Shown in pieces: positions 2,302 through 33,906 of a DNA stretch of 37,428 nucleotides. The translations under genes and the position numbers were made by a program. Where the stretch lies: contig OMIN01000027.1 of NCBI GenBank assembly GCA_900299145.1, positions 1 to 37,428 on the forward strand. Direction: 5' to 3'. The notes below the pieces were generated by a model. That model was given only the letters and a program-made list of their open reading frames with translations. It made no database searches and was not told the origin of the DNA. The stretch is from Betaproteobacteria bacterium (GTDB lineage: Bacteria > Pseudomonadota > Gammaproteobacteria > Burkholderiales > SG8-41). Position 1 is the stretch's first letter. Each line of letters starts with the position of its first letter.

Positions 2302-3639
2302 TCAGCCTGCCCGCCCCGTCCGCGCCATCTCCGCGGCACTTTTCACTTTACCCACGCCCCAACACAAGCCGATCAATTTCTCCACCCGTGCCGCTGGCAA
2401 TATCCCCTTGCACTGCGCGCGAAACTTGGCCTCGAGGTCGGCATCACGCATCGGGTTGTCGACGCTGCCCATGCAGTGTTCGACGAGCTTTTCCAGCACG
2501 CGGCCGTCCTTGAGCTTCATGGTGATGTGCACCTGATCTTCCTTGATGCCCTTGCCCACCACAGCGAAGGTGTTGTCGCGCACGCGCACCACCGCCGGGT
2601 TGCGCACGATGGTGTCGCTGTAAGCTGCCTCGCCGCCTTCGCCCAGCAGAATCGCCGCCGCGCTGGAATGGAAGATGCTGAATTTGCCCTCCAGCCCGGA
2701 TTTCGGATCGCGCCGGCTGCACAGCTCAATCACCAGCGGATGCACTTTCAGATCAATGCGCGCGATGTCGGCGAGCTTGAGTTTGTGTTCGTTGCGCAAC
2801 TGCACGCAGCCGTCAATGGCCGGATGGATCACCACGCCGCAGGCGTAGGGCTTGTAGCTGTTGTCCGACATCGCCCAGGCTTTGCCCAGCCCCCGCGTCA
2901 TTGCGTCCGCGTCGAATTTGGTGGACGCCACGCGCGCAAAGCCGCGGCGGCCGTCAATGCCCTGCTCCGGGCCGACGACATTTTTCTTCGCCATCAACGC
3001 CGCCATCAAACCATTCCGCGCGGCGATGCCGGGGTGCAGCGGCTTCGCCATGCTGCCAAAGGTTTCGCGCACGCCACACGCATGCGTGGCCGCGATGCCC
3101 AGCGCCCAAGTCATCTGCTGCTCGTTGAGCTTTAATAGCCGCCCCGCCGCTGCAGCAGCGCCAAACACGCCCGCCGTCGCGGTGATATGCCAGCCGGCGT
3201 CATAATGATTGGGCATAATCGACGCGCCGACGCGGCATTCGGCTTCCACGCCCAGCAAAAATGCGTGTAGAAAGTCGCGTCCACTAATGGGTTGGTGCTC
3301 CGCCAAGGCGAGTATCGCGGGCAACACTGGTGCGCTGGGGTGAATCACCGTCTGGATGTGCGTGTCGTCAAAATCGAATGTATGCGAGCTTGCGCCGTTG
3401 AGCAGCGCTGCCTGAAAAATATCCACACGCTCGCGGCGGCCCAAGATGGTTGCTTCGCGCGGGCCGGAGAATTCGCCAAGCGCCGCCAGCGTGCGCGTAA
3501 TGGTCGGGTGTTGCGATGCGCCGATGGCGCAGCCCACCCAGTTGAGCAAGGCGCGCGTGGCTTCGTGGCGTACAGCTTGCGGCACTGCCGTGCCTTTGTG
3601 GCTGACGAGGAATTTGGCGAGGGTGCGGGTGACGGACAT
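2302..3639 (-). CDS. MmgE/PrpD family protein (2-methylcitrate dehydratase-like)
   Basis: The 445-residue product has the length and features of the MmgE/PrpD superfamily, whose members include 2-methylcitrate dehydratase and cis-aconitate decarboxylase. Visible marks are ALLNWVGCAIGAS near residue 30, the acidic SSHTFDFDDTH stretch near residue 100, and the C-terminal lid region with KEDQVHITMKLKDGR. ATG at 3639 is preceded by GGAG at a suitable distance. In binding-protein-rich betaproteobacterial regions such paralogues often act on unidentified hydroxy- or tricarboxylates, so an exact substrate is not claimed. The gene is monocistronic and faces the beta-barrel gene; a damaged copy of its 3' end lies at 275-541. 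prpB, prpC and acnD are absent nearby, which argues against a standard methylcitrate cycle role. Confidence 0.85.
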   Translation of the reverse strand: MSVTRTLAKFLVSHKGTAVPQAVRHEATRALLNWVGCAIGASQHPTITRTLAALGEFSGPREATILGRRERVDIFQAALLNGASSHTFDFDDTHIQTVIHPSAPVLPAILALAEHQPISGRDFLHAFLLGVEAECRVGASIMPNHYDAGWHITATAGVFGAAAAAGRLLKLNEQQMTWALGIAATHACGVRETFGSMAKPLHPGIAARNGLMAALMAKKNVVGPEQGIDGRRGFARVASTKFDADAMTRGLGKAWAMSDNSYKPYACGVVIHPAIDGCVQLRNEHKLKLADIARIDLKVHPLVIELCSRRDPKSGLEGKFSIFHSSAAAILLGEGGEAAYSDTIVRNPAVVRVRDNTFAVVGKGIKEDQVHITMKLKDGRVLEKLVEHCMGSVDNPMRDADLEAKFRAQCKGILPAARVEKLIGLCWGVGKVKSAAEMARTGRAG

Positions 3640-3728: not shown

Positions 3729-4472
3729 CTATTTTGCCCCAATCTCCCGCCGAATCGCTGCCGCCAGCGGCGGATCGGTTCGATCCAGCGAACGGGCGAT
3801 GCTCTCGGCCTCGCCGAGTTGACCAAGGCGAATATAGGCCCGCGCGAGACCCGTCCATGCAGGGGATAGCCCGCCGTCGATATCCAACGCCTGCCGGTAG
3901 GGGCGCACGGCCTGGGCAAATTCACCGAGGTCGCTGTGGCTTTCGCCCAGCAGCAGTAGCGTCACCGCCGATTCGCGCAGTATGGTCAGCGATTGCGTTA
4001 GCACTGCCACCGCGCGGCGCGAGTCACCCGATTCGCGCAACGTTTGCGCCAGCAGGTTCCAGCCCGCCGCGGAATCAGGCTCCAGCCGGATCACTTCGCG
4101 ATAGCACTCGACGGCACGCGCGTAATTCGTAAGGCGCGAATGGGCGTAACCCGCCACCATCCACCAGCCAGTATTGACCTTGTCCTTCTCCAGGTTTTCA
4201 TCGGCGAATTTCGCCAGCCCTGCCCAATCGCCCGCACGTTCCAGTTCAGCGACGCGGCGGCGATTGGTGTCGCTTTCGCGCTCGAAGTTGCTCAACAACA
4301 CCGGCACAGTGCCGTCGGGTAACAATGAGAACAACACCTGACCGGCGGTGGTGCAGGCGGTAAGCGCGGTGCAGGCCAGCATTGCGGCAAAGGCTTTGAT
4401 CGCTGTGAGGCCGTGCTGGTGGTTTATCGCGTGTTGCAGAATGTTCACGAAATTGATCGAAAAAAATTCCAT
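3729..4472 (-). CDS. TPR-repeat lipoprotein
   Basis: The product (247 residues from the first ATG) contains a hydrophobic stretch AIKAFAAMLACTALTAC that ends in a lipobox, LTA-Cys40, so it is probably a lipid-anchored periplasmic protein. From about residue 95 it shows tetratricopeptide repeats with the W-LG-Y/A-A pattern (for example AVECYREVIRLEPDSAAGWN), which bind protein partners. The start is uncertain. The ATG at 4472 touches a copy of the dispersed AT-rich repeat and lacks a Shine-Dalgarno sequence; GTG at 4448 is an alternative that shortens the unusually long leader. It follows a Bug-type binding protein gene on the same strand by 45 bp and may be co-transcribed with it. Its role is unknown. 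Confidence 0.75.
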   Translation of the reverse strand: MEFFSINFVNILQHAINHQHGLTAIKAFAAMLACTALTACTTAGQVLFSLLPDGTVPVLLSNFERESDTNRRRVAELERAGDWAGLAKFADENLEKDKVNTGWWMVAGYAHSRLTNYARAVECYREVIRLEPDSAAGWNLLAQTLRESGDSRRAVAVLTQSLTILRESAVTLLLLGESHSDLGEFAQAVRPYRQALDIDGGLSPAWTGLARAYIRLGQLGEAESIARSLDRTDPPLAAAIRREIGAK

Positions 4473-4517: not shown

Positions 4518-5468
4518 TCAGATGCCCGCCTCACGCACCACGCGCCGCCACTTCGCCACTTCGGCCTTGATGTAGGCGTCATGCTCGGCGGGCGTGTTGC
4601 CTACCGGGTCAGCGCCATTGTCAATCATGCTTTTTCGCACCGCCGTATCCTGCAGCGTTTTCAACAACGCAGCGCTGAACACGTCTACAACGCTGCGCAC
4701 CATGCCACCGGGGCCAACATAGCCAAAGCCGCTGTTAACCACCAGCCCCGGCAGACCAGCCTCCGGCGCGGTGGGCGTGTCCTTCAACAATTGCGAACGC
4801 CTCGCGCCCGTTTGCGCCAGCAGCCGCAGACGCCCGCTCTTGACGTGCTGAATCGCGCCCGATACGGTGGGAAACGAAAATGCGATCTGCCCTGATATCA
4901 GATCCACCAGTGACGGCCCGCTGCTTTTATACGGCACGTGCACCGTATCGACTTTGGCCGTCAGATTGAACAGCACGCCGGCCAGATGCGACACCGCACC
5001 CTGCCCCGCGCTACCGAAATAGAGTTGCCCCGGCCGCGCTCTTGCGAGCGCGATTAATCCGCTGACATCGCGCGCGGGCAGCGATGGGTGCACCACAAGC
5101 CCGGCGGGCACGTCCGCCACCAGCCCCAGCGCGGTGAAGTCGCGCGCCGGATCAAACGGCAGCGTTTTGGTCAATGCCGGGTTGATCACAAAGCCGGCGG
5201 CCACCATAATCACTGTATATCCGTCAGGCGGCGTTTTCACCGTGTAGCCCGCGCCGATTGCACCACCCGCGCCGGGACGGTAATCCACCACCAGTTGCTG
5301 GCCGAGCAAACTGCCCATACGCCCGGCGGTGATGCGAAAAAAGATATCGGCATTGCTGCCCGGCGAGCCGCCGATGACCACGCGCATGGGTTTGACGGGA
5401 TAACCCTGTGCGCGCACGGCACTGCATGACAAGGCCAGCAAAATGGCCAGCGGTAGAAGACGTTTCAT
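4518..5468 (-). CDS. Bug/TctC family periplasmic substrate-binding protein
   Basis: The product (316 residues) is a tripartite tricarboxylate transporter receptor of the Bug family. It has an N-terminal signal peptide (MKRLLPLAILLALSCSAVRA-Q), the hallmark YPVKPMRVVIGGSPGSNAD segment with the ligand-contacting loop and Asp, the PPDGYTV segment near residue 80, and the HVPYKSSGPSLVDLISGQI segment of the second lobe. Such proteins bind carboxylates, often dicarboxylates, in the periplasm. ATG at 5468 was chosen over an upstream TTG because it gives a normal signal peptide. It is divergent from the TcuA-like gene with 69 bp between starts. No TctA/TctB partners lie in the window, so it is an orphan receptor that may share a membrane unit encoded elsewhere. 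The ligand is unknown. Confidence 0.9.
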   Translation of the reverse strand: MKRLLPLAILLALSCSAVRAQGYPVKPMRVVIGGSPGSNADIFFRITAGRMGSLLGQQLVVDYRPGAGGAIGAGYTVKTPPDGYTVIMVAAGFVINPALTKTLPFDPARDFTALGLVADVPAGLVVHPSLPARDVSGLIALARARPGQLYFGSAGQGAVSHLAGVLFNLTAKVDTVHVPYKSSGPSLVDLISGQIAFSFPTVSGAIQHVKSGRLRLLAQTGARRSQLLKDTPTAPEAGLPGLVVNSGFGYVGPGGMVRSVVDVFSAALLKTLQDTAVRKSMIDNGADPVGNTPAEHDAYIKAEVAKWRRVVREAGI

Positions 5469-5537
5469 GAGTTGCAATCATACCCTGCCGTCCCTAGAAT
5501 CGAATTTCAAATCTCTGATTTCAGGCAAGGATTTTTC

Positions 5538-7025
5538 GTGAAAACCTTTGATGTAGTTGTCGTCGGCAAGGGCAATGCCGCTAACTGCGCGGCGCTCGCC
5601 GCGCGCGACACCGGCGTCAGCGTGGCCATGCTGGAAGCCGCCGCACCTGACGAATCCGGCGGTAACAGCCGCTTCGCCGGCGGCGTGATGCGTTTTGTCT
5701 ATGACAACGTGAACGATTTGCGCAAGCTCATCGACATCACCGACGAAGAGGCGCGCACCACTGATTGGGAAAGCAACACGCGTGATCAGTTTTACGATGA
5801 TCTGTATCGCGTCACCAACTTTCGCACTGATCCTGAATTAAGCGAAGCGCTGATTACGCAAAGCCTCGACGCCATGGTGTGGCTGCGCAGCCAGGGTGTG
5901 CGCTTTGTGCCGAACTATCGCGCGCAGTCGGCGGTGGTCAACGGGCAGCGGCGTTTCTTCGGCCGCATGCCGCTGGAAATTTCTGGTGGCGGGCCGGGGT
6001 TGGTGCAAGCGGCCACCGAAACGGCCGTGAAAAAAGGTGTGGAAATTTTTTATGAAACGCGCGCCGTATCGCTGATTTACGACGGCCTGCGTGTCACCGG
6101 CGTACGCGCACAGCACAAAGGTCAACTGGTTGAATTTAAAGCAAAATCTGTAGTGCTCGCCTGCGGTGGCTTTGAGGCGAATCCGGAATGGCGCACGCGC
6201 TATCTAGGCCCCGGCTGGGAACTCGCCAAGGTGCGGGGCTCGCGCTTTAACATGGGGGATGGTCTGAAAATGGCGCTGGATATCGGCGCGCATCCGTACG
6301 GCAACTGGTCGGGCCGCCACGCGGTATCCTGGGAACGCCACGCGCCGGACGTCGGCAACCTCAATCTGCCGCACAGCTCGTATCGCCACAGCTATCCGCT
6401 GTCGATCATGATCAACGCCGACGGCAAACGCTTTGTCGACGAAGGCATTGAGTTCTACAACTACACCTACGCCAAATACGGCGCGGAGGTGTTGCGCCAG
6501 CCGCAGCAATTCGCCTATCAGGTATTCGACGCCAAGGTGAGGCCGCTGCTGCGCCCGGAATACGGCGACAAGGCCGTGACGCGCGTGGTGGCGAATTCAA
6601 TCGAAGAACTCGCCTCCAAGCTCGAGGGTGTCAACGCCAACGGCTTTTTGCGCACCGTGAAGGAATACAACGCGTCCATAAAGAAGGAGGTGCCCTTCGA
6701 TCACTCCGTGAAAGATGGCCGCTGCACCGAAGGCGTTGATCCGCCGAAGTCGAACTGGGCCAACACGCTCGACACGCCGCCGTTCGAGGCGTATCTCGTC
6801 ACCTGCGGCATTACGTTTACCTTCGGCGGGCTGCGCATTAATCATGAAACCGGGCAGGTGATGAACGTACATCGCCATCCGATTCCCGGCTTATACACGG
6901 CGGGCGAAATGGTGGGCGGGCTGTTTTACTTTAACTATCCGGCGGGTACCGGGCTGGTATCCGGCACGGTGTTTGGGCGCATTGCCGGACTGGGTGCGGC
7001 AGCGGCGGCGAAGGCTGCGGCATAG
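5538..7025 (+). CDS. tcuA: FAD-dependent dehydrogenase, TcuA-like (tricarballylate dehydrogenase family)
   Basis: The 495-residue flavoprotein belongs to the fumarate reductase/succinate dehydrogenase flavoprotein superfamily. It begins with a dinucleotide-binding fold (FDVVVVGKGNAANCAALAA) close to that of TcuA, which has GGGNAA here. A GGNSRFAGG stretch near residue 55 and the C-terminal LYTAGEMVGGLFYFNYPAG and TGLVSG motifs match the FAD/substrate-binding parts. TcuA oxidises tricarballylate to cis-aconitate. The adjacent Bug receptor and the MmgE/PrpD gene fit carboxylate catabolism, but TcuB, the usual electron-transfer partner, is absent, so another substrate is possible. GTG at 5538 was chosen because AAGGA lies seven bases upstream; an earlier in-frame start adds residues without family support. 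Its stop overlaps the GTG of the next gene, indicating translational coupling. Confidence 0.75.
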   Translation: MKTFDVVVVGKGNAANCAALAARDTGVSVAMLEAAAPDESGGNSRFAGGVMRFVYDNVNDLRKLIDITDEEARTTDWESNTRDQFYDDLYRVTNFRTDPELSEALITQSLDAMVWLRSQGVRFVPNYRAQSAVVNGQRRFFGRMPLEISGGGPGLVQAATETAVKKGVEIFYETRAVSLIYDGLRVTGVRAQHKGQLVEFKAKSVVLACGGFEANPEWRTRYLGPGWELAKVRGSRFNMGDGLKMALDIGAHPYGNWSGRHAVSWERHAPDVGNLNLPHSSYRHSYPLSIMINADGKRFVDEGIEFYNYTYAKYGAEVLRQPQQFAYQVFDAKVRPLLRPEYGDKAVTRVVANSIEELASKLEGVNANGFLRTVKEYNASIKKEVPFDHSVKDGRCTEGVDPPKSNWANTLDTPPFEAYLVTCGITFTFGGLRINHETGQVMNVHRHPIPGLYTAGEMVGGLFYFNYPAGTGLVSGTVFGRIAGLGAAAAAKAAA

Positions 7026-8011
7026 TGGTGAGAAATCCCGCGATACTGCAACTTGTGCCATGCGCGGCATTTTTGCTGACCGCTGCAACCACGTTGCCCG
7101 CTCTGGCGCAGGAAACCTACCCCGCCAAACCCGTGCGGTTGCTGGTTGGCTTTAGTCCCGGCGGCGGGCAGGATATCGCGGCGCGGCTGATCGGCAAGTT
7201 TCTCTCGGCATCGTGGAACCAGTCGATCGTGGTGGATAACCGCGCGGGGGCTAACGGCATCATTGCCGCCGAGGCTGTTGCCAACGCCGCGCCCGACGGC
7301 TACACCCTGCACATGTTCACCGCCAATGACACTGTGAACGCCGCCACGCGCGCAAAAATGCCCTACGACACGCTGCGTGATCTCGCACCGGTAACCTCTC
7401 TGGCCAGCGCGCCGTATTTGCTGGGCGTGCATCCATCGCTGCCCGCGAGCAATGTGCGTGAGCTGGTTACGCTGGCGAAGGCCCGGCCCGGCCAACTGAG
7501 CTATGCCTCGTCGGGCACGGGTAGCCCGATTCATCTTTCCACGGCGCTCTTCAACAAGATGGCGGGCATCAACCTGCTGCACGTTCCCTATAAAGGCGCC
7601 GGGCCTGCGCTGGTCGATCTGGTCAGCGGCCAGTTGCAGTTGTCGATGGCCTCGCTCGGATCGTTCGCGCAGCACGTCAACAGCGGGCGCATTCGCGTTT
7701 TGGCGGTGTCCGGCGCAGCGCGCATGGCACAACTGCCCGCCGTACCCACCATTGCGGAATCCGGCGTTCCCGGTTACGAAGCGTCCACGTGGAATGGCAT
7801 TGCCGCGCCCGCGAAAACACCGCCGGCAATTATCAGCGCGGTGAATCGCGAAATCACGCGGCTGCTCGCACTGCCTGAAGTGAAAGAGGCTTACGCGCGC
7901 GTTGGCGCGGAGCCGCGCACCAGCACGCCGGACGCTTTCGCCGCACAGATCAAATCAGAAATGAACAAATGGGCCGCGCTGGTGAAATCCATGGGATTGA
8001 AGCTGGAGTGA
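7025..8011 (+). CDS. Bug/TctC family periplasmic substrate-binding protein
   Basis: A 328-residue Bug receptor. The signal peptide ends in TLPALA-QETYP, followed by the family signature KPVRLLVGFSPGGGQDIAAR, the DNRAGANGIIAAE loop, APDGYTLHMF, and the second-lobe HVPYKGAGPALVDLVSGQL. The C-terminus (KSEMNKWAALVKSMGLKLE) is typical and complete. The GTG start shares its G with the TAG stop of the TcuA-like gene; a second GTG at 7028 is possible. The tight coupling suggests that this receptor supplies the substrate of that flavoprotein, probably a di- or tricarboxylate. No membrane components are encoded nearby. Confidence 0.9.
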   Translation: MVRNPAILQLVPCAAFLLTAATTLPALAQETYPAKPVRLLVGFSPGGGQDIAARLIGKFLSASWNQSIVVDNRAGANGIIAAEAVANAAPDGYTLHMFTANDTVNAATRAKMPYDTLRDLAPVTSLASAPYLLGVHPSLPASNVRELVTLAKARPGQLSYASSGTGSPIHLSTALFNKMAGINLLHVPYKGAGPALVDLVSGQLQLSMASLGSFAQHVNSGRIRVLAVSGAARMAQLPAVPTIAESGVPGYEASTWNGIAAPAKTPPAIISAVNREITRLLALPEVKEAYARVGAEPRTSTPDAFAAQIKSEMNKWAALVKSMGLKLE

Positions 8012-9653: not shown

Positions 9654-10634
9654 TCAATCCAGCCTCAAACTAAGCCTTCTCAAAATCTTCTCATTCCGCG
9701 CCATTTCATTGCGAATATAGGCGTCGAACTGCTCAGGGTTCATGGCGCCGACGTTCATGCCCTGCTTAGCGAGCAGGTCGTTTACATCGGGCAGTTGCAG
9801 TGCCTTGCCGATCTCGGATGACAGCCGTTCGATGATGGGCCGTGGTGTGCTGGTGCGCACAACCGTGCCGAACCAGTTCAGCAATTCAAAGCCCGGCCAG
9901 CCAGATTCATCGATGGTCGGCACTTGCGGCAGCGTGTTGTCGCGCTTTAGCGATGTGACAACAATGCCGCGCAGTTTGCCGGTGGGGATGTGTCGCACAC
10001 ACTCGAACACGTTGCCAACGAGCATGCTGGTGTGGCCGCCGATGGCGGCGATCACCGCCGGAGCACCACCACCGTAGGGCACGTTGACAATATCGATCTT
10101 GGCAACGTCCTTGAAGAGCTCCCCGGCGACACGTCCGCCGCCGATGACGCTGGACACCGCCCAGGTCAGTTGTCCCGGACGCGCCTACGCCAGCGCGACC
10201 AGTTCCTTCATAGTTTTCACCGGCAGCGACGGGTGGGTGCAGAAAATCATCGAGTTATGTATCAGCCGAGTGACACCGGTGAAATCCTTCAATGCGTCGT
10301 ACGGCAGCCGCGAGCGCGCGAACGGATTGACGGTGAAACTCGTCGCCATGAACAGCACTGTGTAACCGTCGGCAGGCGCGCGAAACACTTGCTCAGTGCC
10401 GATGACGGTGTTCGCACCCGTGCGATTTTCAATCACGATGTTTTGCCCCAGCGTTTTGGATAGTGGCGCCGCCAGCACGCGAGCGAGAGTGTCAATAAGC
10501 CCACTGGCGGGAAACGGCACTACAAAACGAATCACGCGATTGGGGCAATCCTGCGCCGGGGCCACTGCGGCGAAGAGCGCCGCGACGCTACCGAGGGAAA
10601 CTGTAAATATTTGTTTTTATTGACATTTTTCATG
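9654..10634 (-). pseudogene. Broken Bug/TctC family binding protein gene
   Basis: The minus strand encodes a full-length Bug receptor in two frames. A strong ribosome site (GGGGAG) and ATG at 10634 lead into MKNVNKNKYL, but this frame does not join the hydrophobic leader VSLGSVAALFAAVAPAQ, which is in another frame. A copy of the dispersed AT-rich repeat lies exactly between them, at 10604-10621. Further on, the frame is cut by TAG at about 10173-10175, where relatives usually read KARPGQL (here ALA-stop-ARPGQL). After it the protein continues normally (HTSMLVGNV, EMARNEKILRRL) to a stop at 9654. Two independent lesions make it a pseudogene, although the reading frame is otherwise well kept, so the damage is probably recent. 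Confidence 0.85.
10604..10621 (-). repeat. Dispersed AT-rich repeat, copy 3, inside a leader-coding region
   Basis: On the minus strand: AATAAAAACAAATATTTA followed by CAG. It lies between the ATG and the signal-peptide codons of the broken Bug gene. Removing 20 bp (the repeat plus CA) would restore the frame. Confidence 0.7.
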
Positions 10635-10949: not shown

Positions 10950-11945
10950 ATGAAATACTGGCCCTCCTGTCTGTTGCTGGTGCTCACTCTTCTGGCGCAG
11001 GAAGCCCCCGCGCAAAGTAACACCGGGAAAAGCGCCCAGGGCACCAAAGGCACACAATGGCCCCAACGCCCCGTGCGCGTGGTCGTGCCCTTCCCCGCCG
11101 GCGGCAGCACGGACATTATCGCGCGGCTGGTATCGCCGCATCTGACTGAAGAATTCGGCCAGCAATTCATCGTCGACAACCGCAGCGGCGCGGGCGGCAC
11201 TATCGGCGCGGAAATCGCCGCGCGTGCGACGCCCGACGGCTACACCGTCGCGGTGATTCCTTCGAGCTACGCTGGCGCAGCAGCGTTGTATCCGCTGTCG
11301 TTCGATCCAGTGAAGGGCATCGCCCCCATCAGCATGATCGGCACCGGATCGTTCATCCTTGGCGTGCATCCGTCAGTACCGGCGCAAAACTTCAAGGCGC
11401 TCATTGATTTGCTCAAAGCCAAACCCGGTGCGCTCAACTTTGCCTCTCCCGGCACTGGTAGCACACCACACCTGGCATCCGAGTTGCTGAAACAGATGGC
11501 CGGTGTCAATTTCGTACACGTGCCTTACAAGGGTGATACCCCTGCGCTCACTGACTTGCTCGCCGGCCAAATGCACATGCAGATTGCGTCGGGCCCCGTC
11601 TATGTGCCACATATCAAGGCGGGCAAAGTGCGTGCGGTCGCGGTGACGGCCTCAAAGCGCTATTTCCTGTTTCCGGAGCTGCCCTCCATTGCTGAAAGCT
11701 ATCCCGGCTTTCACGCCATCGGCTGGAACGGCATGATCGCGCCCGCTGGTACGCCGCGCGACATCATCAACCGGCTGAATCGCTCCGTCGCATCATTCCT
11801 GAAACGCCCTGATATTCAGGAGCGCCTGCGCAACGATGGCCGCGAAGGCATATCGACTACGCCCGAAGAAACCGCACAAATGCTGGCCTCCGAAATCGCC
11901 ACCTGGGTGAAGGTGGTGAAAGTGGCGAATATTCGGATCAACTGA
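10950..11945 (+). CDS. Bug/TctC family periplasmic substrate-binding protein
   Basis: A 331-residue Bug receptor with a signal peptide (MKYWPSCLLLVLTLLAQEAPA-Q), a short low-complexity linker, then the core signature RPVRVVVPFPAGGSTDIIAR, DNRSGAGGTIGAE, TPDGYTVAVIP and HVPYKGDTPALTDLLAGQM. The ATG has AAAGG upstream. It is followed after 98 bp by a ThDP-dependent enzyme and then another Bug gene, all on the plus strand. The three probably form one transcription unit for uptake and breakdown of an unidentified carboxylate. No TctA/TctB is nearby. Confidence 0.9.
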   Translation: MKYWPSCLLLVLTLLAQEAPAQSNTGKSAQGTKGTQWPQRPVRVVVPFPAGGSTDIIARLVSPHLTEEFGQQFIVDNRSGAGGTIGAEIAARATPDGYTVAVIPSSYAGAAALYPLSFDPVKGIAPISMIGTGSFILGVHPSVPAQNFKALIDLLKAKPGALNFASPGTGSTPHLASELLKQMAGVNFVHVPYKGDTPALTDLLAGQMHMQIASGPVYVPHIKAGKVRAVAVTASKRYFLFPELPSIAESYPGFHAIGWNGMIAPAGTPRDIINRLNRSVASFLKRPDIQERLRNDGREGISTTPEETAQMLASEIATWVKVVKVANIRIN

Positions 11946-13808: not shown

Positions 13809-14807
13809 ATGACGCGCCTTCTTGCAGCATTTCCACTCCTGAAAGCGATGCGCCGGTTGGGGGGCGCATTGTTGTTGTCGCTCGCCGTCACCGCTGCCGC
13901 GCAGGACTACCCCAGCAAAGTCGTGCGCATTATCGTGCCCACCTCGACCAGTGGTTCTGTGGACATCTATGCGCGTCTGGTGGCGCGCGACTTGCAAACC
14001 GCCTTCGGCCAATCGTTTATCGTCGAAAACCGCCCCGGCGCGACCGGCATGATCGGCAGCGAGCTCGCCAGACGCGCCGCCCCCGATGGCTATACGCTGA
14101 TGTTCAGCTCCAACACCACGCACGTGCTGGGGCCGCTGCCGCGCGAGCCGCGGCCCTTCGATGCGGTGGCGGATTTCACCTCGATCACCAAGTTGCTGCG
14201 CTATCCATTGTATTTGCTGATTCACCCGTCCGTGCCGGTGCGCACGCTGAATGAGTTCATCGCCTTTGCGAAAGGGCGGCCAGGCGAGCTGGTCTACGCC
14301 AGCGCCGGGCTGGCGAGCATGAGCCATGTGGCGATTGAGCTTTTCACTCACGCCGCGGGCGTCAGGGCAATACACTCGCCCTATAAAGGCCCTACACCCG
14401 CGCTGCAGGCAGTGGCGGGCGGCGAAGCGCATTTTCTGTTTAATAACATTGGTACATCACAGGCGCTGGTTGCGGCGGGCAAGCTGCGCGGGCTGGCAAT
14501 CACCGGCGATAAGCGCTCGCCCGTGCTGCCACAAATGCCCACCATGGCCGAGCTGGGACTACGCGGGTTCGAGAACGTCAATACCTGGGTCGGCTCGTTC
14601 GCACCGGCCCATCTGCCGCAGCCGATACTCAACAAGCTGAGCGGCGAAATCACGCGCATCATGCGCACGCCGGAAATGGAAAAACGCGTGCTGAACGACG
14701 GCTACATCGCTGTGGTCAATACGCCATCGCAGTTCCGTAGCGAAATTCTGGCGGAAGTTGAAGTCTGGTCACGCGTGGTACGCGAGCGCGGGATCAAGGC
14801 GGAGTAA
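13809..14807 (+). CDS. Bug/TctC family periplasmic substrate-binding protein
   Basis: A 332-residue Bug receptor starting 19 bp after the ThDP enzyme, with GGGAG before the ATG. The leader is long; an internal ATG at 13851 would give a conventional signal peptide, MRRLGGALLLSLAVTAAA-QDYP. The core signature reads KVVRIIVPTSTSGSVDIYAR, with the usual proline/glycine loop partly replaced by Thr/Ser, followed by ENRPGATGMIGSE, APDGYTLMF and HSPYKGPTPALQAVAGGEA. The altered ligand loop suggests a substrate different from the other paralogues. It is convergent with the propeller gene. Confidence 0.9.
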   Translation: MTRLLAAFPLLKAMRRLGGALLLSLAVTAAAQDYPSKVVRIIVPTSTSGSVDIYARLVARDLQTAFGQSFIVENRPGATGMIGSELARRAAPDGYTLMFSSNTTHVLGPLPREPRPFDAVADFTSITKLLRYPLYLLIHPSVPVRTLNEFIAFAKGRPGELVYASAGLASMSHVAIELFTHAAGVRAIHSPYKGPTPALQAVAGGEAHFLFNNIGTSQALVAAGKLRGLAITGDKRSPVLPQMPTMAELGLRGFENVNTWVGSFAPAHLPQPILNKLSGEITRIMRTPEMEKRVLNDGYIAVVNTPSQFRSEILAEVEVWSRVVRERGIKAE

Positions 14808-27447: not shown

Positions 27448-28332
27448 TCACGCGAGAGCCAGCTTGCGTTTCCTGCGGCGTTCTGCAAAACCCAACAATC
27501 CCAATCCGGCAAGCATCAGAGCATAGGTCTCCGGCTCGGGCACTGGCGTAAACACAATAACATCCTGCTTGTTAGGGCTGGCGTAGCCGTTCACCGTATA
27601 TTTGGTGCCCGAATAAGCCATCAGGTAGTTCAACCACTCCTGCGCCTGTGCAACCACCTCTTGCGAATTCACGGTGGTGTTGCCGACCGAATAAAAGTCA
27701 CCGCTGTTCAGGTAGTAGTGCCCCCCGTTGGCGTTGTATTTATCCGTGTCGTAGACAATCTCCCAGATTGCCAGTTGCAACGCGGCAGACCCCACCGCAG
27801 AATTGAACGCGGTATTCGGGTTGCTGGTGGTGAATGGTGCAGTGTTCACCAGATGCCCGCCACTATGCGCTTCGTCATACAACCGGCTGAGATTCTGCAA
27901 GACTTGCGTATTGATCAGATCCACGCCCGGACTGCCAGATTTGGGGGTGTAGCCGATCAACGTCGGAAGCTTTGTGTAATCTTTACCAGTTTGATAGGGA
28001 CTAGGCGCGGTAGGAGTAGACCCCAAGCTATATGTCGTGTTGAAAGACAGGCTTTGCCACACGTCGATACAGAAGGATTCAAACGTTGCCCCGTAGGTTG
28101 TTCCACCGTTATTGCTGATCTGGGTATTGTAGGCGCCGATGCTGGCGTGCGTGATAGGCGCAGCCGGTACCGCCGCTATTTTCACGTCCACCGAGCCGTA
28201 CTCAAAACCGGTGAACTTGAGCGTCGAAGCAGCATCCGCAGGCTGGACAACCACCGTCAGCAGGGCAGTTGCTGCCACTGCAAGCATTCCGCTTGAGGGC
28301 TCCCTGTTGACGAGTTTCGTTTGGTTTGTCAT
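27448..28332 (-). CDS. PEP-CTERM protein with candidate Cys-Gln thioester domain (paralogue 1)
   Basis: A 294-residue secreted protein. It has an N-terminal signal peptide (hydrophobic core AVAATALLTVVVQPADA) and a C-terminal sorting signal: VPEPETYALMLAGLGLLGF then a basic ERRRKRK tail, the PEP-CTERM signature read by exosortase. Between them FESFCIDVWQ has Cys88 and AALQLAIWEIVYD has Gln186 and Trp190. This is the paired Cys / Q-x-A-[IV]-W arrangement of thioester domains, which cross-link covalently to host or matrix amines in Gram-positive adhesins. No other catalytic motif was found. ATG at 28332 was chosen by alignment with the paralogue (MTTMSK / MTNQTK); longer starts exist. It follows another PEP-CTERM gene by 57 bp and ends before a terminator. 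The thioester is inference; the sorting signal is seen. Confidence 0.85.
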   Translation of the reverse strand: MTNQTKLVNREPSSGMLAVAATALLTVVVQPADAASTLKFTGFEYGSVDVKIAAVPAAPITHASIGAYNTQISNNGGTTYGATFESFCIDVWQSLSFNTTYSLGSTPTAPSPYQTGKDYTKLPTLIGYTPKSGSPGVDLINTQVLQNLSRLYDEAHSGGHLVNTAPFTTSNPNTAFNSAVGSAALQLAIWEIVYDTDKYNANGGHYYLNSGDFYSVGNTTVNSQEVVAQAQEWLNYLMAYSGTKYTVNGYASPNKQDVIVFTPVPEPETYALMLAGLGLLGFAERRRKRKLALA

Positions 28333-28389
28333 GGCTGTTGGATGCCGCATGTCTTTGAGTGAGGTACCTGCATTCACTCGTGTAGAACT

Positions 28390-28995
28390 TTAAGCTGCTT
28401 CGCTTACGGCACGGCGGCGGCGGGCAACAAAGCCCATCAGGCCCAGACCAGAAAGCATCAACGCCCATTCGCTCGGCTCGGGGACGGCGGTAATCTGCGC
28501 CGATACGTCATAGCGAGTGAAGGTATTCGCCGGTGAGGCATTATATGTACCTTGAATTTCCAAGTAATAGTTCTGACCTGACGTCAGCACCGCTTCCGGA
28601 AACGCCACGGGACCAGCCAGCAGTGAAGTACCGATCAGCACATCTCCGCCGCCCGCTCCGACTGCGCCAAGATCATGGTAAAAGTTCACTTGGCTAAACA
28701 AGCCATCTGCGGTGTTCGCATTCAAGGGCAGAGGCCATGCCAGCGAAATGGTGGCAGTGGCTTCGCCAGCCGTAAGAGTAGTAGCCGGCACGAAGTCTCC
28801 AGCGTTGAAGGTAAACGTGTAAATATCACTAAAAGCCTGACCCGCAGCCACACTAGACGGCCGGAATTTCTGCGTAAACGCGCAGAGTCCGCCAGGAAAA
28901 CACGGGTTGAAAGACAACGCTTGAGTCGAAGTAAGCACCGCGTGAGCGCTGCCTACCGACGCCATCAACATCAAACCTGCCAAAATCTTTTTCAT
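28390..28995 (-). CDS. PEP-CTERM sorting-domain protein, small
   Basis: A 201-residue exported protein with a signal peptide (MKKILAGLMLMASVGSAHA) and a C-terminal PEP-CTERM signal: [17 protein letters not shown], then basic ARRRRA. The FSDIYTFTF segment matches the FxDxYxF pattern common in PEP-CTERM proteins of this type, whose role is unknown beyond surface or matrix location. ATG at 28995 has AAGG about eight bases upstream. Its last 49-bp tail-coding block is identical to the tail fused to manC at 31755-31803. Two CRP-type palindromes lie 115-155 bp upstream of the start. The thioester-type PEP-CTERM gene follows after 57 bp, so the two form an operon. Confidence 0.88.
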   Translation of the reverse strand: MKKILAGLMLMASVGSAHAVLTSTQALSFNPCFPGGLCAFTQKFRPSSVAAGQAFSDIYTFTFNAGDFVPATTLTAGEATATISLAWPLPLNANTADGLFSQVNFYHDLGAVGAGGGDVLIGTSLLAGPVAFPEAVLTSGQNYYLEIQGTYNASPANTFTRYDVSAQITAVPEPSEWALMLSGLGLMGFVARRRRAVSEAA

Positions 28996-29109
28996 TTTCT
29001 TACCTTTCAATTGAGTTTTGAAGAATCATTGACACTTAATCAAACCACACTTCCCGCGACTCAATAATGACAAATTCTGATTCCTCTTGCGCAGTTAAAA
29101 CTCAAGCAA

Positions 29110-29523: not shown

Positions 29524-30627
29524 CTATCGTACGGCGGCGCGCCGGAATGGTGCCGCCAGTGGCTCACCGATAAAGATGCCTTGCCCCGGCATTTGCACGC
29601 TCTTCCAGTACGCCTCTATCAGGGTCTCACCCTGCAAGTAGCGCCCCACCGCCACGGGGATCGCGGGAAATTTTGATGGCAAATTGCACGGCTCTACCAC
29701 GGTACCATAGCTTCCCGTCACCCCCGCCTCCAACCAGCGCATGGCGCTCATCTGGCTGCTGTCGACAAGTACGCCGCCAGTGGAAGTAAGATGATCAGCC
29801 ATGGCGCCAGGCAAGAATTTCAGCGTATCCAGTCCCTCAACTACGGCGAGACCCGTGAAGTAAAACATTATGTCATCGACAAACTTCACCGAGTTCTGAC
29901 GCATGGTGCGGCCAAATACGCGTCCCTTGATAAGTTCCTCGACCAACGGATACGTCGAACTGCGAACATTGCGCGCTTTGTCATTGGTCGAAAGAAGATA
30001 GGCGCTGCCTTCCGGCATTGTGCCGTCGGAAGCGACACCCCGGTCAATCAGCGCCTTGGCCTGGTCAAAGGTTGTCGCAGCGATAGCCATGGTAGGGCGC
30101 ATCTTCAGTTGGGTAAAAGGCTGCGTAACCGGCGAATTGAAATAGCGACTGACCTGCGTGCCATTGCAACCGCTTGCACAGAGCGCTGGGTCCGCGCCAA
30201 ATGCGAATGCGGAAGTGATGGACATGCACTCGACGCGATACGGCGCCGCCCACGTCAGCGCATACGCCTGCACGTGCTTCATGGAACGTTCGTCCACTAT
30301 GGCCTTGATGGAGTCGAATTCGTCACGAGTCAACGCCGCCTTGGCGGGCGGAAAATCCACCTTGATGACGTTTTGAAAAGAGATTTTCCGCCGCTCCACA
30401 TAGTATTCACCGATCTGAACACTCAAGGGGTCTGCAGTATTGATAATTACCGCCAGCTGCGTGTGGTCGATCGCATGGGCCTGGAACACCGAGAGCCCCA
30501 GCAAGCTCGTGACAATCGCCGCCAAGGCCGTTCTGACTGCCCCTTGCGCCATCTCCGGCAACTTCACTATCCGCAGATGGTTGCGGCAGAGTTCACTTTT
30601 TACAGATAGCACCATGGGGATTCTCAT
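29524..30627 (-). CDS. TIGR03790 family protein (PEP-CTERM-associated)
   Basis: The 367-residue product (from the ATG at 30627) matches the TIGR03790 family, which co-occurs with PEP-CTERM/exosortase systems in betaproteobacteria and others. Visible marks are LAVIINTADPLSVQIGEYYV at the start of the mature domain, AYALTWAAPYRVECMSITSAFAFG, and the C-terminal PGQGIFIGEPLAAPF. A hydrophobic segment (ALAAIVTSLLGLSVFQAHA) precedes the domain and is probably a signal peptide. The exact start is unclear: ATG at 30627, TTG at 30672 or ATG at 30552, none with a good ribosome site. The molecular function is unknown. It lies between two PEP-CTERM genes and after a terminator, so it has its own promoter. 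Confidence 0.85.
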   Translation of the reverse strand: MRIPMVLSVKSELCRNHLRIVKLPEMAQGAVRTALAAIVTSLLGLSVFQAHAIDHTQLAVIINTADPLSVQIGEYYVERRKISFQNVIKVDFPPAKAALTRDEFDSIKAIVDERSMKHVQAYALTWAAPYRVECMSITSAFAFGADPALCASGCNGTQVSRYFNSPVTQPFTQLKMRPTMAIAATTFDQAKALIDRGVASDGTMPEGSAYLLSTNDKARNVRSSTYPLVEELIKGRVFGRTMRQNSVKFVDDIMFYFTGLAVVEGLDTLKFLPGAMADHLTSTGGVLVDSSQMSAMRWLEAGVTGSYGTVVEPCNLPSKFPAIPVAVGRYLQGETLIEAYWKSVQMPGQGIFIGEPLAAPFRRAAVR

Positions 30628-30694
30628 TGGACCATTAGGCGGTAGGAGGAAATTACCATACGATGCATCCAAGCTAAAGTGACACCCCAGAACG

Positions 30695-30746: not shown

Positions 30747-31655
30747 CTATGCGGTAACTTTGCGCTGCTTGTCACGGCTTCGCACATAGCCCAGTAGCCC
30801 AAGGCCCGCCGCAAGCAAGGCATAAGTTCCAGGTTCGGGTATCGGCGTAAATACAATGACGTCCTGCTTTGTCGAACTTACATAGCCATATACCGCGTAT
30901 TTACTGGGGGAATAACTCAACAAATAATTCAACCACTCCTGTGCTTGAGCTACCGCTTCCTGCGCATTCACTGTTGTGTTGTTAATCGAATAGAAATCAC
31001 CGCTGTTCAAATAATAGTGCCCGCCATTGGCATTATATTTGTCCGTGTCGTAGACAATTTCCCAAACCGCCAATTGCAATGCGGCGGAACCTACCGCTGA
31101 ATTGAACGCGGTATTCGGGTTCGTCGTGGTAAATGGCGCGGCGTTCACCAAATGCCCGCCACTGTGCGCCTCATCGTAAAGCCGGCTGAGTTGCTGCACT
31201 ACTTGCGTGGTGATGGATTCGACCCCCGTCTTGGGCGAGTAACCAACCATCGACGCACGTTCAGTGTACACCGTCCCCGAATAATACGGACTCCCGTTTT
31301 GTGCAGGTGTATAGCCACGCTTTAACGTGTAATCAGGATTGGCGTTAAAAGACAGCGACTGCCATACATCTATACAAAACGATTCAAAGGTAGAACCATA
31401 ACTGTAACTAGTTCCGCCAGCAGGGTCGGTGCCAATTTTTGTGTTGTATGCCCCCACATTGGCATTGGTAAACGTAGTGGCGGGAACAGCGCCAAGATTT
31501 ACGTTCACCGAGCCATACTTAAATCCCGTGAACTCCAGTGAGTTGGAAGTCGCGGCAACCGCCGGCTGGGCAACAATAGTGACCAAGGCGCTGGCTACTG
31601 CAGCGAGCATGGTGCCCGCGCCACGTCTGTCAAGAATCTTGCTCATTGTTGTCAT
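30747..31655 (-). CDS. PEP-CTERM protein with candidate Cys-Gln thioester domain (paralogue 2)
   Basis: A 302-residue paralogue of the protein at 27448-28332, clearly similar along its whole length (for example RLYDEAHSGGHLVN and NANGGHYYLNSGDFYS shared). It has a signal peptide ending AQPAVA-AT and a PEP-CTERM signal IPEPGTYALLAAGLGLLGY with a basic RSRDKQRK end. Cys94 in FESFCIDVWQ and Gln194 in LQLAVWEIVYD keep the thioester-type spacing. Differences concentrate between these motifs: it has a YTPAQNGSPYYSG stretch absent from paralogue 1. ATG at 31655 follows the manC fusion stop by 59 bp, almost the same as the 57 bp separating paralogue 1 from its upstream PEP-CTERM gene, pointing to a shared two-gene ancestor. 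Confidence 0.85.
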   Translation of the reverse strand: MTTMSKILDRRGAGTMLAAVASALVTIVAQPAVAATSNSLEFTGFKYGSVNVNLGAVPATTFTNANVGAYNTKIGTDPAGGTSYSYGSTFESFCIDVWQSLSFNANPDYTLKRGYTPAQNGSPYYSGTVYTERASMVGYSPKTGVESITTQVVQQLSRLYDEAHSGGHLVNAAPFTTTNPNTAFNSAVGSAALQLAVWEIVYDTDKYNANGGHYYLNSGDFYSINNTTVNAQEAVAQAQEWLNYLLSYSPSKYAVYGYVSSTKQDVIVFTPIPEPGTYALLAAGLGLLGYVRSRDKQRKVTA

Positions 31656-31714: not shown

Positions 31715-33019
31715 TTACGCTTGAGCCGCATTGCGGCGACGGCGAGCCATGAACCCCATCAGGCCCAGACCAGAAAGCATCAACGCCCATTCGCTCGGCT
31801 CGGCGCGGTGGTGATGCATCTGCAGCGACAGTGAGGCGCCCGGGTTCACCACCAGCCGCTTCACCTGAAAGCGTTCTCCGGCGTCGACACTGTCGTAGTA
31901 GCCCCAAGGCCGGTAAATTTTGCGATGCGCGTCGGCTTCAGTACGTTTCTCGTCTTTCAACCGCGCCACCACCGACTTCACCTGCTGAATGCGATTTTTG
32001 TCCGCCACCAGCACGGCATCGGGAGTTTCAACCACCACGATATCTTCCACGCCGACGCAGGCGACCATGCGCGACTGCGACATCATCAGTGAATTGCGTG
32101 TATCCACCGCGATCACGTCGCCACGCTGCACGTTGCCCTCGCCATCTTTGCTGCCAATATCCCACAGAGCATCCCACGCGCCGACATCAGACCAATCGCC
32201 CGCGTACGGCATGACCACGCCCATGCCAGCAGGCAGCTTTTCCATCACCGCGTAGTCAATGGAATCGGCCGGGCAAGCCGAGAATGCCTCGACACCCACA
32301 CGCAGAAAATCCCGGTCACGGCTGCGCGCATCGAACGCATCCTGACAAGCCTGTAGCATGTTCGGGCGCACCGCGCGCAGCCGCGCGATCCACACAGAGG
32401 CGCGCATCAGGAATATCCCCGCATTCCACAGATATTCACCGCTGGTAAGATATTTTTCAGCGGTTTGGGCATCCGGCTTTTCAACGAAAGACGCGATTTC
32501 ATTGCCCCCGCCCGCGAGTGCCGCGCCCGAACGAATGTAGCCATAGCCCGTTTCGGCACGCGTGGGGCGTATACCGAAGGTCACCAGTTTATCTGCCTCA
32601 GCATACGGCAGTGCACGCGTTACTTCCGCGCGAAACGCCGCCACGTCGCTGATAATGTGATCGGCTGGCATCACCAGCAGCGCCGGGTCATTGCCGTCAT
32701 CCAGTGCCAGCAGTGCCGCCAGCGTCAGAGCCGGCGCGGTGTTTCTGCCCTTGGGCTCCAGCACCACTACCGATTGCGTGTGTCCGGCCTGATGCAACTG
32801 TTCCGCAGTAATGAACCGGTAGCTGTCATTACTCACCACGATCGGCGGCAACACTGCACCGCGTGGCAACGTCAGCGAGGGATCAATCCGGCACGCGGTC
32901 GCCTGCAGCAGCGTTTGATCGCCGCTTAAAGCCAGCAACTGCTTGGGATATTGCTCACGTGACAGCGGCCACAGGCGGGTGCCGGAGCCGCCGCACAAAA
33001 TTACCGGTTGCAGGCTCAT
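31715..33019 (-). CDS. manC: Mannose-1-phosphate guanylyltransferase fused to a PEP-CTERM tail
   Basis: The 434-residue product starts as ManC, which makes GDP-mannose from mannose-1-phosphate and GTP. The nucleotidyltransferase signature [18 protein letters not shown] is at 10-27, with [22 protein letters not shown] and FVEKP. The type II cupin (phosphomannose isomerase-like) domain begins at about residue 380 ([18 protein letters not shown]) and reaches HHHRAE at 407. It then stops and continues as [16 protein letters not shown] plus [10 protein letters not shown], a PEP-CTERM sorting tail. Normal ManC continues for about 65-70 more cupin residues. The transferase domain looks intact; isomerase activity should be lost. 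ATGA overlap with the galU stop shows coupling. No signal peptide is present, so the tail should not direct export. See findings for the junction. Confidence 0.85.
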
Positions 33020-33906
33020 GCCTTCGGGCCACCATTACTTGAATTGCGCGACTCAAGATACTCACGAAACTCTGCCCCGACTTCCGGATGCGTAAGCCCA
33101 AACTCCACCATCGCCCGCAAGTAACCGATTTTCGAGCCGCAGTCGTAGCGCACGCCGTTGTAACGGCAGGCCAGCACCTGTTGCTCTGTTAGCAACGCCG
33201 CAATGCCGTCGGTCAATTGAATCTCGCCGCCGGAGCCGGGGGTGGCATTCTCAAGATGATGAAAAATTCGCGGCGTCAGAATGTAGCGCCCCACCACGCC
33301 GAGCGTTGATGGCGCATCTTCGGGTTCGGGCTTTTCGACAATACCGCTCACCTGCTCCAACCGATCAGCCATCGGCCGCGAAGCCACAATACCGTAGCTG
33401 GCCGTGTCTTCGCGTGCCACGTCCTGCACGCCGAGCAGCGAACAGTTGTAAAAATTATAGGCATCCACCATCTGCCGCATCACCGGCGGGTCCCCCGCCA
33501 GCAAGTCATCCGCCAGCAGCACCGCGAACGGTTCGTCGCCGATCACCGGCTTGGCACACAACACCGCGTGCCCAAGCCCCAGCGCCTCCGCCTGACGGAT
33601 GTAGATGCAATTAATGTTCTTCGGCAACACATTACGCAGTGTTTCGAGCAGCTGATTCTTGCCACGCAACTCCAGCTCGGTTTCCAGCTCATAGGCCTTG
33701 TCGAAATGATCCTCTATCGCCCGCTTGCTGCGGCCCGTAACGAATATCATATCCGTCACCCCTGCCGCCACGGCTTCTTCCACCGCAAACTGGATCAACG
33801 GTTTGTCGACCACCGGCATCATTTCCTTGGGACTGGCCTTGGTCGCCGGCAGGAATCGCGTGCCCATGCCAGCCACCGGGAACACGGCTTTGGTGATTTT
33901 TTGCAT
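33016..33906 (-). CDS. galU: UTP-glucose-1-phosphate uridylyltransferase
   Basis: The 296-residue enzyme makes UDP-glucose from UTP and glucose-1-phosphate. The nucleotidyltransferase signature [17 protein letters not shown] is at 13-29, with [25 protein letters not shown] and [13 protein letters not shown] following, all in family order. AAGGAG lies before the ATG. Its stop overlaps the manC ATG. Together with galE it supplies UDP-glucose and UDP-galactose for the exopolysaccharide. A likely sigma-70 promoter is seen at 33946-33975. Confidence 0.96.

Follow-up and report, generated by a model that had tools for sequence, protein, structure and literature searches.

We found that manC, in the draft genome of a Betaproteobacteria bacterium, encodes a product that is normal as far as HHHRAE (residue 407) and then ends in a tail of 27 residues resembling a PEP-CTERM sorting signal. 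The comparison with related genomes suggests that the fusion is probably a private deletion in this lineage at the microhomology CCGAGC, which would have partly inactivated ManC, an outcome that we consider more probable than a new sorted protein. The gene lies in what we call the window, that is, the whole stretch of 37,428 nucleotides analysed here (contig OMIN01000027.1). The whole assembly of the source organism (G000) is a draft of 5.5 Mb in 158 contigs and is 99.69% complete. If real, the fusion would be a snapshot of a gene fusion born of a microhomology deletion, beside quickly turning-over PEP-CTERM genes. The coordinates are given in Table 1.

Table 1. Position of manC, the fused tail and the neighbouring genes in the window
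Feature	Position	Strand	Basis or remark
manC open reading frame, 434 aa, ends in a stop	31715-33019	minus	sequence, frame and coordinates checked
manC residues 1-354, guanylyltransferase domain and left-handed beta-helix, complete	31958..33019	minus	above the cut-offs of PF00483 and PF22640
Cupin (type II isomerase) stub, residues 355-407	31799..31957	minus	PF01050 partial match
PEP-CTERM-like tail, residues 408-434 and stop, putative remnant of a lost small PEP-CTERM gene	31715..31798	minus	profile matches, tail comparison
49-bp block identical to 28433-28481	31755..31803	minus	tail of the small PEP-CTERM gene
Junction, 6-bp microhomology CCGAGC common to manC and PEP-CTERM tail	31798..31803	minus	comparison of fusion, G007, G014 and small PEP-CTERM gene
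galU-like uridylyltransferase gene, overlaps the manC start	33016..33906	minus	also the neighbour in G007 and G008
Large PEP-CTERM paralogue 1, immediately follows the fused tail	30747..31655	minus	
TIGR03790-family gene	29524..30672	minus	in G014 likewise downstream of manC and a PEP-CTERM gene
Small PEP-CTERM gene of the FxDxF family, to which the fused tail is most closely related within the assembly	28390..29010	minus	NF038126 73.7 bits, cut-off 50
Large PEP-CTERM paralogue 2, immediately follows the small PEP-CTERM gene	27448..28377	minus	

Regarding the domains, the product matched the bifunctional ManC family TIGR01479 with 552 bits (cut-off 373) over profile positions 1-398 of 467, and the match ended at residue 407. 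This agrees with the preliminary description of this DNA, which had placed the change from a normal ManC to a PEP-CTERM-like tail at the same residue. A bifunctional ManC (GMP/PMI) should carry a complete nucleotidyltransferase with beta-helix as well as a complete type II isomerase cupin; the 434-aa protein has the former, and its match to the cupin (PF01050) was restricted to positions 2-53 of 116.

The solved GMP of Thermotoga maritima (2x5s, a chain of 336 residues that was covered almost to its end and so has no cupin) aligned to residues 4-354 of ManC, and the N-terminus of the fused protein is presumably a nucleotide-binding motif. In the AlphaFold model the pLDDT was mostly above 90 for residues 1-354, 57-64 over residues 361-400 and below 50 from residue 401, although nearly all rows of the input alignment stop near residue 407, so that the tail has little alignment support. 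The match to the T. maritima enzyme and the pLDDT pattern make it plausible that the fused ManC, if stable, retains guanylyltransferase activity and produces GDP-mannose from mannose-1-phosphate; in the same way they suggest that the mannose-6-phosphate isomerase activity was lost. Since 2x5s, which we take to be an active guanylyltransferase, matches residues 4-354 only, this enzyme appears to work without the cupin. The same outcome, one activity kept and the other lost, had been predicted beforehand, and the complete domains up to residue 354 together with the partial cupin support it.

We also searched the source assembly for an enzyme that could take over the missing step, as had been advised for a second pmi or manC. 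There was no other isomerase of the three types searched (PF20511, PF10432 and PF01050); the only small cupin that came near, a 125-aa protein on contig C67, had 28% identity to the ManC cupin and was unlike a ManC end. Moreover, no match for a GDP-mannose 4,6-dehydratase was over the cut-off. Taken together, these two results suggest that the GDP-mannose supply may be blocked or mannose-dependent in this bacterium. If the fusion is real, the genome is predicted to charge mannose-1-phosphate and to be without a recognised isomerase for the step from fructose-6-phosphate to mannose-6-phosphate.

In order to know how ManC ends in other organisms, we gathered 109 loci, 29 from the best matches in 100 related genomes (62 of which matched) and 80 kept from 585 in the genome collection. 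In 107 of them a single alignment ran from residue 10 or earlier to residue 460 or later of the 477-aa ManC of G007, and the remaining two loci were cut by contig ends. Not one of the 106 relatives' proteins with a visible stop bore a PEP-CTERM-like tail according to a simple pattern. In G007, which belongs to the same genus and is the closest usable relative, ManC is complete at 477 aa and its gene follows the same galU gene; the amino acid identity over the shared part is 90%. A full-length manC in related genomes, which the preliminary description had proposed to look for, is therefore what these loci show.

Among the relatives we found no second genome carrying the fusion. G008 was considered as one; its manC contig breaks off at residue 396, which is eleven codons short of the junction, and the rest of that genome (62% complete) yielded neither the cupin end nor the fused tail. 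Furthermore, four genomes were inspected because their ManC matches looked broken. In G001, another member of the genus, the guanylyltransferase (residues 5-362) and the cupin (365-476) are in different frames (G001:C34:11284-12686, L186), and its ManC appears to be split at the domain linker. The second ManC copy of G040 is also in two frames, and in G037 and G042 the protein is broken at contig ends. These breaks show that ManC damage at other places does occur in relatives.

As for selection, the pairwise dN/dS between G000 and G007 was 0.068 for residues 1-407, 0.073 for residues 1-298 and 0.027 for the stub (355-407), and between G000 and G008 it was 0.066 over 396 residues. These low values are averages over the whole branch and have little bearing on the period after the fusion. 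Compared with G007, G008 and G014, the changes private to G000 were 7 in residues 1-354 and none in the 42 residues of the stub common to all four genomes (355-396), where around 1 was expected from the rate in the rest of the protein. The absence of private stub changes would weakly fit a recent event, and equally an artefact.

The tail itself was compared with all the PEP-CTERM tails of the source assembly, 19 in a profile search. The longest exact DNA match among the 171 tail pairs was that between the fused tail and the small PEP-CTERM gene, 49 nt, followed by one of 32 nt, the median being 9; this bears out the 49-bp identity that had been noticed from the letters. Moreover, the word PSEWAL was present only in these two tails. 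The block sits inside a 70-nt repeat of 91% identity, and beyond the 49 nt the likeness falls sharply, so the fused tail would be either a mosaic or a copy of its own in which 49 nt were homogenised. Given the longest match of all pairs, the unique PSEWAL and the divergence past 49 bases, we infer that the two tails are related by descent and that these bases were homogenised or copied in a template switch.

The fused tail scores only marginally as PEP-CTERM. With the Pfam model it obtained 20.4 bits in hmmscan, the cut-off being 20.7, and 24.1 bits, over the cut-off, in the genome search; TIGR02595 gave 16.1 (cut-off 16) and the PEPxxWA-CTERM model NF035944 gave 26.9 (cut-off 35). The matches start at model position 3 or 4 because the first proline of PEP is absent, the tail having AEP instead.

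At the junction the fusion reads CACCGCGCCGAGCCGAGCG, manC of G014 reads CACCGCGCCGAGCACTGG and the small PEP-CTERM gene reads GTCCCCGAGCCGAGCG, and the word common to them is CCGAGC. The shared word had been given before as CCGAG; that there is a short shared word holds, and its length has to be corrected to 6 bp, with the last C deduced from the His codon in relatives. Of 200,000 random junctions between both kinds of gene end, with G007 used in place of the lost manC end, 0.2% reached at least 6 bp and 0.6% reached 5 bp. The comparison is thus in favour of an illegitimate recombination at a short shared word, as had been suggested.

Regarding the gene neighbourhood, the order in the source assembly is manC with its tail, large PEP-CTERM, TIGR03790, small PEP-CTERM and large PEP-CTERM. 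The two large paralogues have 65% amino acid identity, so they have diverged as the preliminary description stated, and their start regions, each preceded by a PSEWAL tail, are partly similar. This is what would be expected if the fused tail ends a duplicated small and large pair. In four of the eight loci (G007, G014, G025 and G045) manC is followed by a convergent lytic transglycosylase, which was not near manC in G021, G034 and G044; the contig of G008 ends before that point. Beyond the transglycosylase, two of these four have PEP-CTERM sequence related to that of the window, a fragment with an in-frame stop in G007 and a gene followed by TIGR03790 in G014. The exact arrangement before the deletion was found in no genome, and the relatives had no copy of the small PSEWAL gene downstream of manC.

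We did not find the missing cupin end elsewhere in the source assembly, nor a close homologue of the transglycosylase of G007: the best one, on contig C65, has 62% amino acid identity, versus 90% for ManC. As C65 begins inside this lytic transglycosylase, we considered it as the true continuation of manC, in which case the fusion might be a misassembly. This is unlikely, because the identity is well below that of ManC, the neighbours of this gene look to us like methyltransferases and the contig starts with an adapter remnant, although 62% lies within the 61-67% between the transglycosylases of other genera.

Several other irregularities were seen in these contigs. C65 starts with an adapter remnant, presumably of the Nextera type (G000:C65:20-38, L152; AGATGTGTATAAGAGACAG), which indicates that the reads were not fully trimmed. 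In G007 the transglycosylase frame enters the middle of a large PEP-CTERM gene on the opposite strand (G007:C380, L055, around 3769-3791 and 3883-3885); this gene, joined from residue 203/210 of the window paralogues, carries the in-frame stop, so that this neighbourhood has another break that resembles a junction. A short inverted repeat (CTCCTTCCCCTTCAGGGGGAAGG-like) at 2741-2782 and 3178-3221 of L055 flanks an endonuclease-like open reading frame between manC and the transglycosylase of G007, and the repeat is also present at G000:C113:58809-58852.

The complete ManC of the relatives, the transglycosylase and PEP-CTERM genes downstream of it there, the 6-bp microhomology and the lack of both the cupin end and a close transglycosylase in the source assembly all point to a deletion. 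The ancestor would have had galU, a full manC, the convergent lytic transglycosylase, a small PEP-CTERM gene and a large PEP-CTERM gene. The simplest history would be an earlier duplication of the small and large PEP-CTERM pair and then a deletion reaching the upstream small gene. One break would have fallen in the manC cupin after HHHRAE and the other at the PEP motif of the small gene; their joining at CCGAGC would have removed around 70 manC codons, the front of the PEP-CTERM gene and the transglycosylase between them. The reading frame would have been kept open, leaving a guanylyltransferase with its beta-helix, followed by a useless remainder of the cupin and by a tail that is hydrophobic and basic. 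The deletion, its size and its recency are reconstructed from present-day sequences, and these speak only weakly for a recent event. Furthermore, the abrupt end of the 49-nt block counts against a simple deletion, and gene conversion or a template switch would also be needed.

The preliminary description had instead proposed that a segment with the tail was brought into the 3'-end of manC. A duplicated unit of tail and large PEP-CTERM gene landing in manC would explain why 49 bp are identical in the small PEP-CTERM gene that still exists, and two such units are present. However, the units have diverged beyond the 49 nt, as their paralogues at 65% identity indicate, which makes the whole unit old, and the transglycosylase that adjoins manC in four relatives is missing here, as a deletion predicts. 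We therefore consider an insertion very improbable, and the relatives suggest that the tail is a remnant left by a deletion between manC and the downstream PEP-CTERM gene.

As the fusion is known from a single draft genome, an artefact of the library or of the assembly is the main rival to the deletion. A chimeric read, a strain mixture or a misjoin would then have produced a junction absent from the organism; the preliminary description had already named an assembly chimera. The 158 contigs, the adapter remnant in another contig, the odd junction in the same neighbourhood of G007 and, weakly, the lack of decay in the stub are all compatible with this, and short k-mers leave some doubt about the phase of the tail because of the 49-bp repeat. 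Nevertheless, we reason that the 6 bp common at the junction are too short for a k-mer misjoin and that the 49-bp repeat, which begins at the junction, cannot create it; moreover, the missing cupin end is on no other contig of an assembly with such a high completeness. An artefact is on balance unlikely, although it deserves more weight than any other alternative to the deletion.

If the deletion is real, it should be asked whether the tail is used. According to PMC1569441, PEP-CTERM combines an almost invariant PEP with a hydrophobic stretch and a basic cluster, a signal peptide is present in 97% of the members after re-analysis of the start sites, the active site of exosortase is predicted to lie on the outer face, and PEP-CTERM is only rarely appended to an enzyme. 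The fused tail has the hydrophobic stretch followed by the basic cluster, and its 15-residue Kyte-Doolittle peak is 1.63, versus 1.61-1.78 in three PEP-CTERM neighbours. However, AEP takes the place of Pro-Glu-Pro, and by hydropathy there is no N-terminal signal peptide, the 15-residue peak being 0.81 versus 1.58-2.37 in the same neighbours. Owing to the lack of both an export signal and PEP, exosortase sorting of the fused ManC is unlikely. The source assembly has one exosortase gene and an EpsI gene; as the exosortase gene is present, the limit would be access and not machinery. After a deletion the tail would be a passenger that, without an N-terminal export signal, never reaches the periplasmic face, the predicted site of exosortase action.

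A functional guanylyltransferase with a PEP-CTERM tail, held at the membrane or sorted by it beside the polysaccharide machinery, would be in line with the hydrophobicity of the tail, with the exosortase and EpsI genes and with the rare tailed enzymes mentioned above. Against it are the weakly hydrophobic N-terminus, the AEP and the absence of such a tail in all 106 relatives' proteins with a visible stop. Also, the enzyme needs GTP and a sugar phosphate, so no substrate is expected for it outside the cytoplasm, and we regard this reading as very improbable; the new PEP-CTERM fusion protein that had been offered as one of two outcomes is poorly supported, and the incomplete cupin and the lacking sorting features favour the other, a partial inactivation. 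There is a similarly slim chance that the deletion made, in one step, a membrane-associated GDP-mannose synthase, whose AEP tail would dock the guanylyltransferase on the inner membrane face beside the polysaccharide machinery, the missing isomerase step being covered by mannose uptake or an unrecognised enzyme. If this were true, it would show how cytoplasmic enzymes first gain PEP-CTERM-like tails. Among the papers searched, none treated PEP-CTERM together with ManC. The fusion is worth taking into account in annotation, since its tail may lead to automatic labelling as PEP-CTERM, for which there is no support in the rest of the protein.

Elsewhere in the window, on the minus strand, a 127-aa open reading frame (275-658) repeats the C-terminal 100 residues, approximately, of its neighbour at 2302-3639 with 77% identity; it looks like a partial duplicate of this gene, which we take to be MmgE/PrpD-like. 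Two successive open reading frames at 9654-10565, also on the minus strand, look like halves of one receptor gene, presumably of the tripartite-tricarboxylate type, of which there seem by eye to be more at 4518-5477, 7025-8011, 10950-11945 and 13809-14807.

Finally, the fused protein can be compared with three known systems. It is like the bifunctional ManC/AlgA (TIGR01479) in residues 1-407, in the gene neighbours and in the family score of 552 bits, whereas around 70 residues at the end of the cupin are replaced here by the 27-aa tail. With the stand-alone GDP-mannose pyrophosphorylase of T. maritima (2x5s) it shares the catalytic domain and the beta-helix, and no working cupin is expected; nevertheless, it adds a cupin stub and a hydrophobic tail. 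The likeness to the PEP-CTERM/exosortase signal (TIGR02595, PF07589, NF035944) lies in the hydrophobic segment and the RRRR at the extreme C-terminus, and the nearest relative of the tail, at a distance of 3.3 kb, is a genuine PEP-CTERM gene. However, the fused protein has AEP, scores around or under the cut-offs and has no hydrophobic N-terminus.
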